Shown piece by piece: positions 19,166-30,329 of a stretch of DNA of 38,766 nucleotides. Position numbers and translations under genes: made by a program. This DNA is from a virus. Where the stretch lies: the IMG/VR virus record IMGVR_UViG_3300030107_005854, positions 1 to 38,766 of that record; one strand, given 5' to 3'. Each line of letters opens with the position of its first letter. Position 1 is the first letter of the stretch. The notes beneath the pieces are model-generated. The model was not told the origin of the DNA. It did no database searches and was given only the letters and a program-made list of their open reading frames with translations.

Positions 19166-20008
19166 ATGGGTGCCTTTGAAAGGGTTTCTGCAAGGAAGAA
19201 GTGTCCTGTGTGCGGCGCAAAAGATTGGTGCCTTGTCGCGTCCGATGGGAACGCGGCAATTTGTCCGAGAACAGAGCAGGGCAGCTCGAAGTACATCGAC
19301 GGAAGCGGCTACCTTCACGTTTTTGCCAAAAGCAAGTACGAACCCGGCAAAGAGGCCGAGTGGAGAGAAGCGGTACAAACGTACCGCTCTGACCTTCCCC
19401 TACACAACTCCGTTAAAGCGGACATGATGAAAAGCTTGATGCTCAAAAAGGGCGACAAGATGCTCAAGTCCATTTCTGAGAATCTGGAGATCAGCGAGGA
19501 AACCTGGCTGAAGATGTGGGTTGGGTACAGCAGCACAAAGCGCGGGTATTGTTTCCCCATGTTTCGGAAGGGGTACCAACTGGTCGGGATACGGGTCAGG
19601 CAGTCTGCAGGAAAGAAATTTGCATTCAAGGGGAGCCGTGAGGGCCTGTTCATACCAAAAGGTTTTGATTCTGATAAGCGCCCGGTGGTTGTGTGTGAAG
19701 GGCCCACTGACACTGCCGTTTGTGTTGAGTTTGATTTCCGAGCAGTAGGCAGGCCCTCTTGCTTGGGTGGCCAGAAGCTGCTTGCCGAGTTGCTGGAAAA
19801 TGAACACGTTTGCATACTTGCGGATTCGGACGGGCCGGGGCAAACTGGGGCACAAAAACTTGCAGAGGCGCTTGCTGGAAAGTCGAAGAGTGTTTCTGTA
19901 GCCACACCGCCAGCAAAGGATCTACGAGAATGGATGTACCAAGGGTGCCAGAGACAGGATCTACTCAATCTGATCCGTGGCGCTGCTACATCCCTGGGTA
20001 CGACCTGA
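19166..20008 (+). CDS. DNA primase, TOPRIM type with zinc motif
   Basis: This 280-residue protein is likely a primase that makes RNA primers for phage replication. The N-terminus has a zinc-ribbon pattern (CPVCGAKDWC at 13-22, then C33). A TOPRIM domain follows, with the catalytic Glu in VVVCEGPTDTA (Glu178) and the metal-binding pair in ILADSDGPG (Asp220, Asp222). PPAKDLREW near 248 is also typical of phage primases. There is no helicase domain; the separate helicase is the gene before. The start follows the helicase stop by 2 bases. A dyad site (19369-19388) lies inside the gene. Confidence 0.85.
   Translation: MGAFERVSARKKCPVCGAKDWCLVASDGNAAICPRTEQGSSKYIDGSGYLHVFAKSKYEPGKEAEWREAVQTYRSDLPLHNSVKADMMKSLMLKKGDKMLKSISENLEISEETWLKMWVGYSSTKRGYCFPMFRKGYQLVGIRVRQSAGKKFAFKGSREGLFIPKGFDSDKRPVVVCEGPTDTAVCVEFDFRAVGRPSCLGGQKLLAELLENEHVCILADSDGPGQTGAQKLAEALAGKSKSVSVATPPAKDLREWMYQGCQRQDLLNLIRGAATSLGTT
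19369..19388. repeat. dyad site 2, GCGGTAC-AAAC-GTACCGC
   Basis: An 8-bp inverted repeat with a 4-base spacer inside the primase gene. Its 14-base core GGTACAAACGTACC differs by one base from the cores at 7849-7866 and 33588-33603. Confidence 0.45.
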
Positions 20009-20352
20009 TAAATCCAAACAAATTGATGCGTATGCATTGGGCCGTAAGGAAAAAAGCTTACAAAAACCTACTCCACATGGTCATGGCCTATGGAGACAAG
20101 CCGCTTCCTCAGTATGAAAACCGTGTGGAAATCAGGGTCACAAGACTCTGGGGGAAAAGAAAAAGGGCGTTTGACATTGACAACCTATACGGCGGGTGCA
20201 AGTTCATTTTGGACGCCTTGAAGACGAAAGGCGGATTGGGCATTATTCAAGACGACAGCCCGAAGCACACCAGTTTGGTGGTAGAACAAAGGAAATCCGA
20301 GGGAGATCTTGCCGGGGGAATTGAAATTTTGGTGAAAGAAGTAGACAATTAG
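19930..20352 (+). CDS. RusA-like Holliday-junction resolvase
   Basis: This 140-residue protein likely cleaves branched DNA before packaging. The RusA pattern is visible: NPNKLMRMHW near residue 30, then the metal-binding core FDIDNLYGGCKFILDAL (Asp82, Asp84, Lys91, Asp95) and the downstream pair GIIQDD (Asp108, Asp109). I place the start at the ATG at 19930, 79 bases inside the primase gene, because earlier in-frame sequence lies deeper in that gene; a start at the later Met33-Met35 is possible but would remove part of the fold. It is the last gene of the recombination-replication operon. Confidence 0.75.
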   Translation: MDVPRVPETGSTQSDPWRCYIPGYDLINPNKLMRMHWAVRKKAYKNLLHMVMAYGDKPLPQYENRVEIRVTRLWGKRKRAFDIDNLYGGCKFILDALKTKGGLGIIQDDSPKHTSLVVEQRKSEGDLAGGIEILVKEVDN

Positions 20353-20640
20353 AGTGCTTGTTTCTGGCGCGAGATAGAGTCTGAGGACAGCCAGTGAGCT
20401 TTGACGCGGCTTCGCAGCGTCATTTTGGAGAACGGCGAAGTCGGCGCACCGACACACTGCTTCGCCCGTTAGTCCGTGTTCTCCGAGGCAGGGTGAAATT
20501 GCGCGATGCCACAACACGCGCAGCGGCTCGTCAGACGTAATTCGACGGGTAGTGAGAAGACACCGGCCCCGCAAGGGGTCGGTCTGTCAACATTTTCTCT
20601 GGGTAGAGAATACCGGAACAGGTAAACCCGCAAATTGCCG
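20353..20640 (+). ncRNA. hairpin-rich gap, candidate structured RNA
   Basis: I see no gene between the resolvase stop and the start near 20680. Instead at least seven stems can be drawn: CTGGC 20364/GCCAG 20390; TGACGC 20402/GCGTCA 20417 followed by TTTT; GGAGAAC 20427/GTTCTCC 20478, enclosing GGCGAAG 20434/CTTCGCC 20460 and TCGG-CGCA-CCGA; TGCGCG 20500/CGCGCA 20517; ACCGGCCCC 20562/GGGGTCGGT 20575 with a GCAA loop; TTCTCT 20595/AGAGAA 20605. Nested helices of this density suggest a structured RNA, an origin or a complex regulatory leader. It does not match RNase P or tmRNA. Confidence 0.5.
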
Positions 20641-20679
20641 ATAGCGAATGTGGCCCAAACACCCAAAACGAGCCCAGGA

Positions 20680-20943
20680 ATGAAAAGCGACGGAAGCAGA
20701 ACAGACCCTTGGTCAATTGTCCAAACATTGGTTTTGTGCGCCACTGCCGCAGCGATATTTTTGGCTGTTGGCAGGCGCGATCATTTAGTGGATATGAACA
20801 GTGAAAGGATTGGGGAACTCAGGGACATAACCCAAGATTTAGTGAAATCCCAAGTACTCTCAGAGGCCAACGATGCTAACCACGCCCATCTCATGCAGGA
20901 CCTTAAAAATCGGGTTGAGCGTCTGGAAAATCGGGAGAAGTAA
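20680..20943 (+). CDS. small membrane protein with coiled-coil tail
   Basis: This protein of 87 residues (start at the ATG at 20680; an in-frame TTG at 20635 would add 15 residues) has one hydrophobic span, WSIVQTLVLCATAAAIFLAV, after a short polar start. The rest is a helix with heptad spacing (IGELRDITQDLVKSQVLSEA, LMQDLKNRVERLENREK). Single-span proteins with a coiled-coil tail are common in phage lysis regions (XhlA- or spanin-like). It begins a series of five membrane proteins. The ribosome-binding site AGGA is very close to the ATG, so the start is not certain. Confidence 0.55.
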   Translation: MKSDGSRTDPWSIVQTLVLCATAAAIFLAVGRRDHLVDMNSERIGELRDITQDLVKSQVLSEANDANHAHLMQDLKNRVERLENREK

Positions 20944-20945
20944 AA

Positions 20946-21149
20946 ATGGAATCTCACCTGGTTACAATTGGCCTTAGCATCGCTGGCCCCGCTATTTTGG
21001 GCATTTTTGGGTTTTTGTGGCGGTCAAACACCAAAATAACGGCACTCGAACATCGTGTTGATGCACACGAAACACGCATAACCAGCAACAGCAAAAAGCT
21101 AAATCAACACTTTGAGAAAGCTTTTACCATTCGCAAGGACATCAAATGA
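20946..21149 (+). CDS. small single-span membrane protein
   Basis: This 67-residue protein begins MESHLVTIGLSIAGPAILGIFGFLW, one hydrophobic span, and continues as an amphipathic helix (KITALEHRVDAHETRITSNSKKLNQ). It has the same architecture as the gene before it, from which it is separated by only 2 bases. It could be a holin-associated or membrane-anchor protein. It overlaps the next gene by 4 bases. Confidence 0.55.
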   Translation: MESHLVTIGLSIAGPAILGIFGFLWRSNTKITALEHRVDAHETRITSNSKKLNQHFEKAFTIRKDIK

Positions 21150-21517
21150 TTTTCCGAGTGGCCATTGCGGCTGTTTTTATTGGCCTGTGTTCCTGTAAGT
21201 CACTTCCCCTGGACTACTCTTCGGGAAAAGCATCAAACATGTTGGAGGGGATGAGGGAATCGTCAGAAACCCTCACGGTTCTCAGCGGCATAGGAGGGCT
21301 ATGCCTGATCGCCGGAATGGTCTTACTGGTGATCAGCAAAGGCCAGAGAGGCTGGTTTCCGGTGGTTGGCGGTCTGATTTTGGTAATCTTGAATTACGGG
21401 ATTGCCCGGTATTCGGATTACCTGTTTGCTCCCGCGCTGGTGTTCACTGGAATGATCAGTGCAGCGTGGACTTACAAAACGGTCAAACAAATTCTTTTGG
21501 AGAAAAAAACAAAATGA
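21146..21517 (+). CDS. lipoprotein-like membrane protein
   Basis: This 123-residue protein begins MIFRVAIAAVFIGLCSC, a signal sequence with a lipobox-like LCSC, which would allow lipid attachment at Cys. Three further hydrophobic segments follow: LSGIGGLCLIAGMVLLVI, GWFPVVGGLILVILNYGIA and LVFTGMISAAWTYKTV. The protein would sit in the cytoplasmic membrane. In this place in a phage genome a holin or a lysis regulator is a fair guess, but no family is recognised. Start and stop overlap both neighbours by 4 bases. Confidence 0.55.
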   Translation: MIFRVAIAAVFIGLCSCKSLPLDYSSGKASNMLEGMRESSETLTVLSGIGGLCLIAGMVLLVISKGQRGWFPVVGGLILVILNYGIARYSDYLFAPALVFTGMISAAWTYKTVKQILLEKKTK

Positions 21518-27444: not shown

Positions 27445-28200
27445 ATGCCCGGAACACCCCCAAGCAAATCGTGGCTAAACAGAGATTGGCGCGAATACCT
27501 TTTGGAAATTGCCGAAGACGTAAAGTCTTTGCAGCAATATGTTCCAATGTTTGAACAATCTGTTCGAGACGTTATGGGCGGCGACCCCGATTCAGTTTCA
27601 ACATCAAGATCGTTCCCCGCATTAATTACTGAAAACAGTGGGTTTTCCCCAAACGGGTGCAATTATACCTGCCGAGAACTTTACAGGCCCCGAACTGTAA
27701 TAAATGAAACCACTGGTGAAATTGAAGAAAACGCAGCGTTTGGGGGATATTTCCTTGCTTCTAATGTTTACGAAGAAGGTCTTGTGTGCGGGTCTTCCGA
27801 AGACAAGGACACGGGGCCCACGATTCCTCCATCACTAGCGCCCGACAACTTTTGTTTTCGGGAGTTTAGTTGCAGCAAGAAACCCATTGGAGAGGGGATT
27901 AGTCCTGGCGTCGTCGTGATAATGCACGCTGCTGTTTGCAATGCAACAAACCCCGACGACGATGACGATGATGATGATGGCCCGCTGGACTGCGGGGCGT
28001 GCCTTAATGTTGACAGAGTTTTGGGCGAAAGTGTCTTTTACTACTTTGCCGCAGTTGTGCAACCTTGCCTTACTTGTGCAGAAGATGATGAAGGATTCGC
28101 CCAACAAAGCGATTCGGAAACAATTGGGCCAGACCTTGGGAACAATCTTGGGGGAGGGATTGCATCCGGTTCTAGCGGCAGGGGAAGGTTTGGATATTGA
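27445..28200 (+). CDS. hypothetical cysteine-bearing virion protein with Asp tract
   Basis: This 251-residue protein begins MPGTPPSKSWLNRDWREYLLEIAEDVKSLQQYV, a helical start, and then has scattered cysteines (CNYTCRE, VCGS, FCFREFSCSKK, AVCNAT, CGACLN, PCLTC). A run of eight Asp residues (27955-27978) lies near residue 175. The C-terminus is Gly- and Ser-rich. Its cysteine richness foreshadows the next gene, which it overlaps by 4 bases (TTGA). It probably works with that gene. Confidence 0.5.
   Translation: MPGTPPSKSWLNRDWREYLLEIAEDVKSLQQYVPMFEQSVRDVMGGDPDSVSTSRSFPALITENSGFSPNGCNYTCRELYRPRTVINETTGEIEENAAFGGYFLASNVYEEGLVCGSSEDKDTGPTIPPSLAPDNFCFREFSCSKKPIGEGISPGVVVIMHAAVCNATNPDDDDDDDDGPLDCGACLNVDRVLGESVFYYFAAVVQPCLTCAEDDEGFAQQSDSETIGPDLGNNLGGGIASGSSGRGRFGY
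27955..27978 (+). repeat. Asp-codon microsatellite (GAY x8)
   Basis: Eight consecutive GAC/GAT codons inside the gene at 27445. Such tracts can change length by slippage without shifting the frame; the resulting Asp run may bind calcium or act as a linker. Confidence 0.6.
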
Positions 28201-30329
28201 TTATTCAAAGTGGGGTTTACCCAAGATTTGATCAAGAATGCATTCCCGATTGCGGCCAAATCTGCCAGGGTTGTTGCCTTTATATTGCCAATGAATTGTG
28301 CCCTCCTTGTCTCCCCGATGGCACAAGACAAGCTGCACAGTGTTACTTGCTCTGGGTAGACATGAGAGAGGGCAACCAATCGCCTGGGTGCGAAGATTGC
28401 TGTGAAGAGCAAATTGAAGAGGGGTATGACCGATGCATGTGCCCATGCCACGTTTACATAGATGGCGAACTTGTAGAAGTAAGGCAGTGTTCAGGAACGT
28501 GCGCGGGCCACGGTTGTTTTCCCAAAAGCCGAAGAGGAAATGCTCAACCTGTTTACTTTTACGATGACAAGTGCTTTGTGGTCAAACAGGCTCCCAACGC
28601 CTATGGGGAAGTCGTAGCTTGCGGGTTTAACCCGTGTGGCTTGATCGATGAAATACCCCCTGATTTTGAATGCCAAACACCTTGGGACTGGATAAACAAT
28701 GCCTGCCAAACTTCGCAAGGAGGAACTTCCGGTGAAGAATGTTTTGTGCGGGCTATGCCATGGTGCGAATGGGCAGGCGAATTTGTTGGCTACAACGACT
28801 TTGGCGACAACAATGAAGTAGAAGAAATATGTAATTGCCCCCCCGACGACTGTGACCCTGAGCCGCCTGAAGATTGTTGCGACTGGGGTCAAAATTGCCC
28901 AGCGGAATTTCTTCAGTGTTGTGAAGATGAAGACACTGGCGATTGCAGGTGCCTGCCAAGATACGACCAAGAGGGGAATGAAATCGACTGTGAGGGAAAT
29001 CCCGGCGGCGGACCCTGTACGCTTGAAGGCGACTGCTGTGACGCAGGGCAAGGCTTGCACACAATTACGATTGCAATGGATTTTAAGAGCGCGTTTGAAT
29101 ACGGCGGCGAATGCGCTTGCTCTGGCGGCAAAGAAGACAGTTGGCCTGAATGTTATGGAACGACCACATACGAGTATCAATTTGGAAGCGCAAGCGACAA
29201 CCCTTACGAAGACAGCCCAGGCCAAGCAGAATTTGTTTGTGGAGCGTCCGATACTGAAAGGTGGCTTAGTTGCTCTGATTCTGACAACTGTGGCGCACTC
29301 CCCTCAATGCCGGGGTATACACCCCTCAACTCGCCCACGCAAAAGTCAATACCAAATTGTGACGCCATTGATGACAGTTGCTGTCCGCAATCAAATTGTG
29401 ATGGCAAAAAGAGAGTCACAGACTACATTGAATGTGGGCAACCGCCCGGAGACATTCCTTGGTGCGACCCCGGAGATTTGGAAAATTGCCCAAAGGGCTG
29501 TTCGATGTATGGGAACATGCACCTCGGCTTGGAACTAGAAGTTAAAAGCATTACGTTTTGTTCAGCAAGCAATGGCCCGAATTATTTCCAAGTTTACGAG
29601 GCCGGTTCTATTGAGGTGCCCAGAATTGTTTTGGGGCACTATTGCAACGGGTCAAACAACACAGGAAACTGCCCATTGCCCACATGCCGCCACGGGGGCG
29701 TGCCCGGAGCCGCACCAGTAAGCTGGTCAATTGGAACTTCTGGAAAGGTTGAAGTTCCAGGTGAGTGGGTTGGGGAATTAATTTTTACCCCAAGTCCTTC
29801 AGATCCATGTATTGGAAACGTGCTAATAAACTTGGCTTTTTTTCCTACGGACACCAGTTTGAACTCTCTCTTTTGGTCTAGGACCCTTTATGCGGTAGAT
29901 CACCCGTGCCGTGGCGGCGCTACTTCGGACGCATATCTCAATTTTGCCTACGTTGTGCAGCAAAATAATGGCTGGATAACTGGGCCAGCACAAGCAATAG
30001 CAGTTATGGAAAATTGCGGTGTCAGCCCCCCCGCTGGGTGCGAGCCGGACGGCGCCGTGTTTACTGAAATCATGGCCGAATACAATGCAAATGGCCAGAT
30101 AATTTTTAATGCGCTGGAACTCAATTCGGTTTCTAGCCTGATGCAGGGGAGTATCAATGCCTATGGCGTCGGAGAAGAGTACAGGGTGTCCGGCTTTACC
30201 GGATGCGATCTTTCCAGGGCAAGCCCCGGCCACCCGTGCGGTTTGTGCGGAGGAAACACAACAAGCGTAAACTGTGGGGGATGGACCGTGGGGAAAATCT
30301 TTTCTCAATTGACAATGGGGTACACCTAA
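28197..30329 (+). CDS. very large cysteine-rich protein of unknown family
   Basis: This 710-residue protein holds about 64 cysteines, roughly 9 percent. They occur in clusters such as CIPDCGQICQGCC at the start, CMCPC, CNCPPDDCDPEPPEDCC, CCEDEDTGDCRC, CPQSNC and CGLCGGN near the end. The first 300 and last 130 residues hold most of them; a middle part (about 455-600) is beta-rich and almost free of Cys. The start is a TTG that overlaps the previous stop. Disulfide- or metal-bound knots in a virion protein that must survive outside cells are one idea. No signal peptide is seen. I know no family like it. Confidence 0.55.
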   Translation: MIIQSGVYPRFDQECIPDCGQICQGCCLYIANELCPPCLPDGTRQAAQCYLLWVDMREGNQSPGCEDCCEEQIEEGYDRCMCPCHVYIDGELVEVRQCSGTCAGHGCFPKSRRGNAQPVYFYDDKCFVVKQAPNAYGEVVACGFNPCGLIDEIPPDFECQTPWDWINNACQTSQGGTSGEECFVRAMPWCEWAGEFVGYNDFGDNNEVEEICNCPPDDCDPEPPEDCCDWGQNCPAEFLQCCEDEDTGDCRCLPRYDQEGNEIDCEGNPGGGPCTLEGDCCDAGQGLHTITIAMDFKSAFEYGGECACSGGKEDSWPECYGTTTYEYQFGSASDNPYEDSPGQAEFVCGASDTERWLSCSDSDNCGALPSMPGYTPLNSPTQKSIPNCDAIDDSCCPQSNCDGKKRVTDYIECGQPPGDIPWCDPGDLENCPKGCSMYGNMHLGLELEVKSITFCSASNGPNYFQVYEAGSIEVPRIVLGHYCNGSNNTGNCPLPTCRHGGVPGAAPVSWSIGTSGKVEVPGEWVGELIFTPSPSDPCIGNVLINLAFFPTDTSLNSLFWSRTLYAVDHPCRGGATSDAYLNFAYVVQQNNGWITGPAQAIAVMENCGVSPPAGCEPDGAVFTEIMAEYNANGQIIFNALELNSVSSLMQGSINAYGVGEEYRVSGFTGCDLSRASPGHPCGLCGGNTTSVNCGGWTVGKIFSQLTMGYT

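Follow-up and report, generated by a model that had tools for sequence, protein, structure and literature searches.

The window analysed here, a stretch of 38,766 nucleotides of viral DNA, contains a gap (20353–20640) with a RusA-like resolvase gene on its 5' side and a cassette of small membrane proteins on its 3' side (Table 1). The PHROG 34 match of the resolvase (E 1.7e-7) was obtained with the longer frame 19810–20352; from its likely start, the gene overlaps a Toprim primase ORF (19166–20008) by ~79 bases (19930–20008) in a different frame. The P4-P5-P6 cassette (20680–21517) encodes short membrane and coiled-coil proteins with only weak matches to Pfam and PHROG, the start of the P6 protein is lipobox-like, and the cassette is probably responsible for lysis. 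The same cassette is present in at least two otherwise distinct groups of uncultured phages (41 P5 loci). Local GC content rises to 0.59–0.60 across 20401–20600. As the initial annotation proposed, there is no credible gene in the gap: single-base indels separate relatives, and stops occur in all three plus-strand frames in each of the six versions checked.

Twelve distinct firm versions of the element, including that of the window, and one tentative version (L090) were found in viral contigs. A search with RusA recovered five contigs, three of them distinct at this site besides the window (L002, L003 and L004 are identical), and all carry the element between RusA and the cassette, an arrangement and version designated type 1. 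A search with P5, a conserved cassette protein, recovered 41 loci, and a diverged version (type 2) occurs in six (L042, L046, L054, L056, L057 and L068) of the 35 for which the upstream stretch was inspected; L075 and the five loci of type 1 make up the other six. Scanning viral contigs for motifs gave 20 stretches, of which L081 and L089 (type 2), L084 (type 3) and the tentative L090 were new versions, while L076, L077, L083, L085 and L086 were rejected as a single motif amid other sequence. All six stretches from a scan of genome contigs (L091–L096) were likewise judged to be chance, with a single motif amid other sequence. Another motif scan (11 stretches) yielded only a chance match inside a minus-strand coding frame (L097), and the 710-aa protein encoded at 28197–30329 retrieved no relatives when used as search bait. 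All firm members belong to one phage lineage; L090, the sole case outside it, is recognized by two motifs, and neither of the pseudoknots described below is seen in it. Among phage GenBank records, the type 2 version, the L090 version and the P5 protein had no match and the window version had a single 25-base chance match. The RNA was absent from all 299 bacterial genomes searched, which represent one phylum, a result that carries little weight because the host may belong to any phylum and no genome is known to match.

The stems named in the initial annotation exist. Two nested helices, GGAGAAC/GTTCTCC (20427–20433 with 20478–20484) and GGCGAAG/CTTCGCC (20434–20440 with 20460–20466), enclose a third, GTCGG/CCGAC (20440–20444 with 20449–20453), and G20440 can pair in either of the latter two. 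The stem with a GCAA loop does span 9 bp (20562–20570 with 20575–20583), but it is not perfect as described, since one pair is G.U. Two H-type pseudoknots, PK1 and PK2, were missing from that list. Across the family the RNA is ~235–290 nt long.

Table 1. Features of the gap and its flanking genes in the window
Feature	Position	Strand	Description
RusA-like Holliday junction resolvase (upstream gene)	19930–20352	+	likely start 19930; PHROG 34 and alignment with relatives
Whole structured noncoding RNA	20353–20642	+	limits approximate (core 20357–20588, 3' end anywhere in 20588–20642); kept in relatives between RusA and next gene; covariation; Rfam negative
PK1, H-type pseudoknot	20357–20394	+	S1 20357–20360 with 20370–20373; S2 20364–20368 with 20390–20394
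PK1 loop 3	20374–20389	+	conserved AGUCU.AGGACA
GGAC in PK1 loop 3	20385–20388	+	candidate long-range partner of GUCC in P3 bulge (20472–20475); tentative
P2 hairpin	20403–20421	+	GACGC/GCGTC; double change in 3 of 4 counted pairs (type 1)
P3 two-tier helix	20427–20484	+	P3a 20427–20433 with 20478–20484; P3b 20434–20439 with 20461–20466
P3 apex and bulge	20467–20477 (bulge)	+	apex GTCGG CGCA CCGAC + ACACTGC; bulge CGTTAGTCCGT
PK2, H-type pseudoknot	20487–20523	+	S1 GGCA 20487–20490 with TGCC 20507–20510; S2 20499–20505 with 20517–20523
PK2 loop 1	20491–20498	+	GGGUGAAA
P4 stem	20527–20549	+	CTCGTC/GACGGG; 96.4% paired, no double change, weakly tested
P6 hairpin	20562–20583	+	GNRA tetraloop GCAA; contains AGGGGUCGGU; nearly invariant across type 1
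GCCGAT box	20637–20642	+	3' end; invariant in type 1
Gene P4 of putative lysis cassette P4-P5-P6	20680–20943	+	start 20680 inferred from alignment

Unpaired positions are invariant at many places, the apical element of P3 (GUCGGCG..CGACACACUGC) is likewise invariant, and the P3 bulge holds AGUCC. In the type 1 alignment S2 of PK1 varies in a compensatory manner and S2 of PK2 has a double change in four of its seven pairs. The P6 hairpin takes a compensated form in L107 (CCTACTCC GTAA GGGGTAGG), and its loop in L084 is GCGA. For the candidate long-range pair between GGAC and GUCC there is a single compensatory case, GGGC with GCCC in L005. In the type 2 loci (e.g., L068 ~1208–1220) an invariant TTTTTCCGATA occupies the loop of a compensatorily varying stem, Px, and CCGAT and GTCGG of the 3' box could form a further pseudoknot with a U-rich loop.

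Covariation was assessed in three alignments. Amongst the four type 1 sequences, 99.1% of 212 cells are paired and 18 of 53 pairs have a double change (500 shuffles average 8.5 and none attains 18), while the seven type 2 sequences have 97.5% of 238 cells paired and a double change in 15 of 35 pairs (500 shuffles average 7.2 and none attains 15). For the P3 core, which could be aligned across types 1 and 2 (10 sequences), all 177 cells are paired and 12 of 18 pairs have a double change (shuffled mean, 8.1; 1 of 500 reaches 12), with a covariation score of 0.706 versus 0.255. Structures slid along the alignments pair in 37–42% (type 1), 35–48% (type 2) and 37–51% (P3 core) of cells, a comparison in which the tested structures have an advantage, having been partly chosen from the same sequences. 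A measure of further standard pair types showed no excess over shuffles in type 1 or type 2, and RNAalifold, run on type 1 without a supplied structure, returned double changes in 19 of 68 pairs. Compensatory base changes beyond controls, as seen here, are the generic mark of a conserved structured RNA, and the retention of the stems and pseudoknots in related phages despite sequence change means that the gap encodes a real RNA. Uncompensated substitutions that break the stems and a conserved reading frame, the two observations that the initial annotation had named as refuting its proposal, were not seen; the substitutions in stems are compensated.

The predicted folding energy of the plus strand is −113.3 kcal/mol (z, −2.56), matched by 2 of 200 shuffles, and the minus strand stands out less from its shuffles (z, −1.47; matched by 19 of 200). 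Folding energy alone is only suggestive, and it is the comparison with relatives that settles the reality of the fold. In the named structures, G.U pairs on the plus strand far outnumber A.C pairs (19 + 6 = 25 versus 1 + 2 = 3), indicating that the plus strand is the folded RNA and counting against a DNA cruciform.

Both pseudoknots were also recovered in blind searches of 13 sequences. The region 5' of P3 was searched for any H-type pseudoknot with the geometry of PK1, the limits of which were fixed after examples had been seen by eye. The PK1 topology was the best hit in 12 of the 13 sequences, and its loop 3 mostly ended in a GGACA/GGGCA-like sequence. Six sequences beat all 60 shuffles, the window alone and L054 were each equalled by 16 of 60 shuffles and so did not exceed chance, and none was found in L090. 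PK2 was recovered in an identical arrangement, with loop GGGTGAAA, in five sequences, all four of type 1 and L107, for which 0 to 8 of 200 shuffles were equally good; the search did not return it for L084, L090 or the six sequences of type 2. When 68 virus records (29 + 39) were screened with a covariance model built from P3 alone (R1), 15 matched with E < 1e-9. One of these (G003, locus L107) was identified as a new member by the model alone (E 9.8e-11) and independently shows PK1, PK2 and the compensated GNRA hairpin. Matches of R1 to L084 and L090 were weak, at chance level (E 0.058 and 0.69 in one run; 0.004 and 0.008 in another). Hand-picked strands pair by construction, and swapping was used as their control: there was little contrast for the long-range pair LR1 (0.977 versus 0.966) and P6 (1.000 versus 0.955) and moderate contrast for LR2 (1.000 versus 0.806). 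Due to this limited contrast the long-range pairs are considered tentative.

No Rfam 15 model matched the window at its gathering score. With the threshold relaxed to E 10, only chance-level matches occurred in the stretches from the window, L084, L090, L081, L087 and L068, and none in that from L107; a minus-strand match to Moco-II was rejected (19.1 bits versus a gathering score of 35). A text search of the open-licence PMC literature found no description of this RNA. It could already be listed, unnamed, in a large catalogue of structured RNA candidates predicted from viral metagenomes. Compensatory changes together with the lack of a matching family support what the initial annotation called an unknown structured RNA.

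The genes around the RNA differ amongst its carriers. Type 1 loci have the order RusA, RNA and cassette, and type 2 loci add a terminator-like hairpin between RusA and the RNA, which in L046 lies ~20 nt from the start codon of the cassette. In L084, RusA, hairpin and RNA are followed by a conserved convergent gene (80 aa) that has its stop at 2987, inside the 3' end of the RNA, and has matches in four other RNA-bearing contigs and in G012. In G003/L107, an ERF-like gene, a hairpin and the RNA precede an unrelated 242-aa gene in an operon that reads into replication genes, with RusA 6.5 kb from the RNA. The tentative copy in L090 is followed by ~1.1 kb without a convincing gene; directly 5' of it is the frame of a small basic protein (L090:4331–4573), and this phage carries a divergent terminase-like gene. 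The position between replication and lysis blocks noted in the initial annotation thus holds for the window and for its relatives of types 1 and 2. It fails for L084, with its convergent gene, and for G003/L107, where the RNA stands ahead of the replication operon, and is not a defining property of the RNA.

Six other P5 loci (L040, L044, L048, L061, L071 and L072) have, by eye, only a hairpin at the junction of RusA and P5, and in the records of three of these (G012, G009 and G023) R1 found nothing convincing (best E 0.013 for G012 and 0.31 for G009; no hit for G023) and no motif set was present. In a RusA tree built without the rows of L068 and L115 and with L084 as a long branch, RNA-bearing (11) and RNA-lacking (6) rows are split by one change (support 83/87). 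A protein comparison of 19 contigs indicates that the RNA-bearing records share a core, with primase and RusA in 11 of 12 and helicase in 10 of 12; the exception is L090. This core is shared by the RNA-lacking G012, G009 and G023, while G010, G008 and G013 have hardly anything except the cassette in common with the carriers. The RNA-bearing contigs have no gene in common that is theirs alone: primase and RusA, the genes found in all 11 larger RNA-bearing records, also occur in RNA-lacking relatives. A conserved downstream gene on the same strand, as would be expected of a riboswitch or leader, was not found among the lineages.

In type 2, L084 and L107 the terminator-like hairpins on the 5' side of the RNA were recognized by eye and escaped a terminator scan, and no recognizable promoter lies between hairpin and RNA at these loci. 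In the window, a scan of 19700–21200 found no rho-independent terminator (GC-rich hairpin with a T run), and a promoter-like site at 20321–20349 occurs at chance frequency (1 found, 1.1 expected). At the end of RusA in L084 (2676–2703) there is a strong sigma-70-like promoter (11/12, with TG before the second hexamer; 0.3 expected), which stands ahead of both hairpin and RNA. A near-perfect DNA palindrome, GTCGCGTCnGACGCGAC, lies directly 5' of the type 2 RNA and after the hairpin in L054, L068, L081 and L089, with GTTGACAATTGTCAAC in its place in L107; a role as an operator or extra hairpin is possible.

Based on these comparisons, the gap appears, on balance, to encode a new family of phage noncoding RNA that is stand-alone, accessory and trans-acting. 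As judged from the alignments, compensatory changes preserve the fold while the surrounding genes differ, and a stand-alone RNA is suggested by its persistence where the downstream gene changes and, in L084, is absent from that strand; its accessory character follows from the relatives in which this junction holds nothing but a terminator-like hairpin. The RNA would be transcribed with, or just after, the transcript that ends at RusA, and would be cut out or simply persist as a compact folded RNA. It could then act in trans, either as an RNA-protein particle or by regulating a host machine or serving as its decoy, in the transition from the replication to the late phase. Large multi-pseudoknot RNAs with dense conserved loops are rare, and many have proved to be enzymes, particles or regulators. 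It is a more speculative and rather improbable extension that the RNA represents a new class of large phage RNAs, in which linked pseudoknots and invariant loops form a core like that of a ribozyme or RNP, with which the phage would bind a universal host machine (e.g., the tRNA elbow or RNase P) and redirect RNA processing or translation; the hint of such binding comes from the loop AGGGUGAAA, which recalls the RNase P specificity domain.

The main rival, to which a smaller though appreciable likelihood is assigned, is a cis-acting leader in which the nascent RNA controls elongation, by antitermination, or translation of the downstream genes. RNA-only antitermination is known from the put RNA of phage HK022 (PMC9378689). 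A leader would fit the placement of the RNA before a codirectional gene both in types 1 and 2, where it is directly 5' of the cassette, and in L107, where it heads an operon, as well as the hairpins on its 5' side. It accounts poorly for the convergent gene of L084 and the stretch lacking a convincing gene in L090, for a downstream gene that is not conserved, and for related phages that have the same cassette and no RNA, and 235–290 nt is much larger than the size of put. A replication origin marked by secondary structure, or its primer RNA, had also been suggested in the initial annotation, and the RNA adjoins primase and RusA genes in most members. This suggestion fared badly and is now very unlikely, as the cumulative GC skew of two contigs has no turn at the RNA (minimum 8,062 in the window's contig, G000, and 33,223 in G007), the G.U pairs kept on one strand indicate RNA, and several relatives from the same lineage have no copy. 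RNA-guided nucleases use compact pseudoknotted RNAs of about this size, but a guide-type RNA (omega-RNA or tracr-like) is highly improbable given that neither HEARO nor any other Rfam model matched, that the carriers alone share no gene, and that a variable guide segment was not apparent. A GC-rich gap might be expected to hold ordinary terminators or chance hairpins, and this explanation is already refuted by covariation in three alignments; the blind recovery of both pseudoknots and the lack of a terminator-like site also count against it, leaving it next to no likelihood.

Amongst known systems, tmRNA has several pseudoknots in one RNA, as does the RNA described here, while ARAGORN predicted no tmRNA or tRNA genes in the window and neither tRNA-like ends nor a tag frame were noticed. 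The loop AGGGUGAAA appears identical to a conserved stretch in the specificity domain of bacterial RNase P RNA, but RNase P models, run to E 10, matched none of the stretches from the window, L084, L090, L081, L087, L107 and L068, and no P4-like core is visible by eye. The nearest cis-acting idea is HK022 put, also a phage RNA that would work while nascent and next to terminators (PMC9378689), from which the present RNA differs in its size, its pseudoknots and a member, L084, without a downstream gene on its strand. The nearest kind is that of GOLLD and ROOL, structured and pseudoknotted noncoding RNAs of phages and prophages that have no assigned function, many GOLLD members exceeding 800 nt and both often lying near tRNA islands (PMC12286853). 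In contrast, the RNA of the gap is only ~290 nt (235–290 nt across the family), matches neither Rfam model and has no tRNA in the window. Structured phage RNAs of unknown function are already known as a broad kind; what is new here is the RNA family, in both its sequence and its fold.
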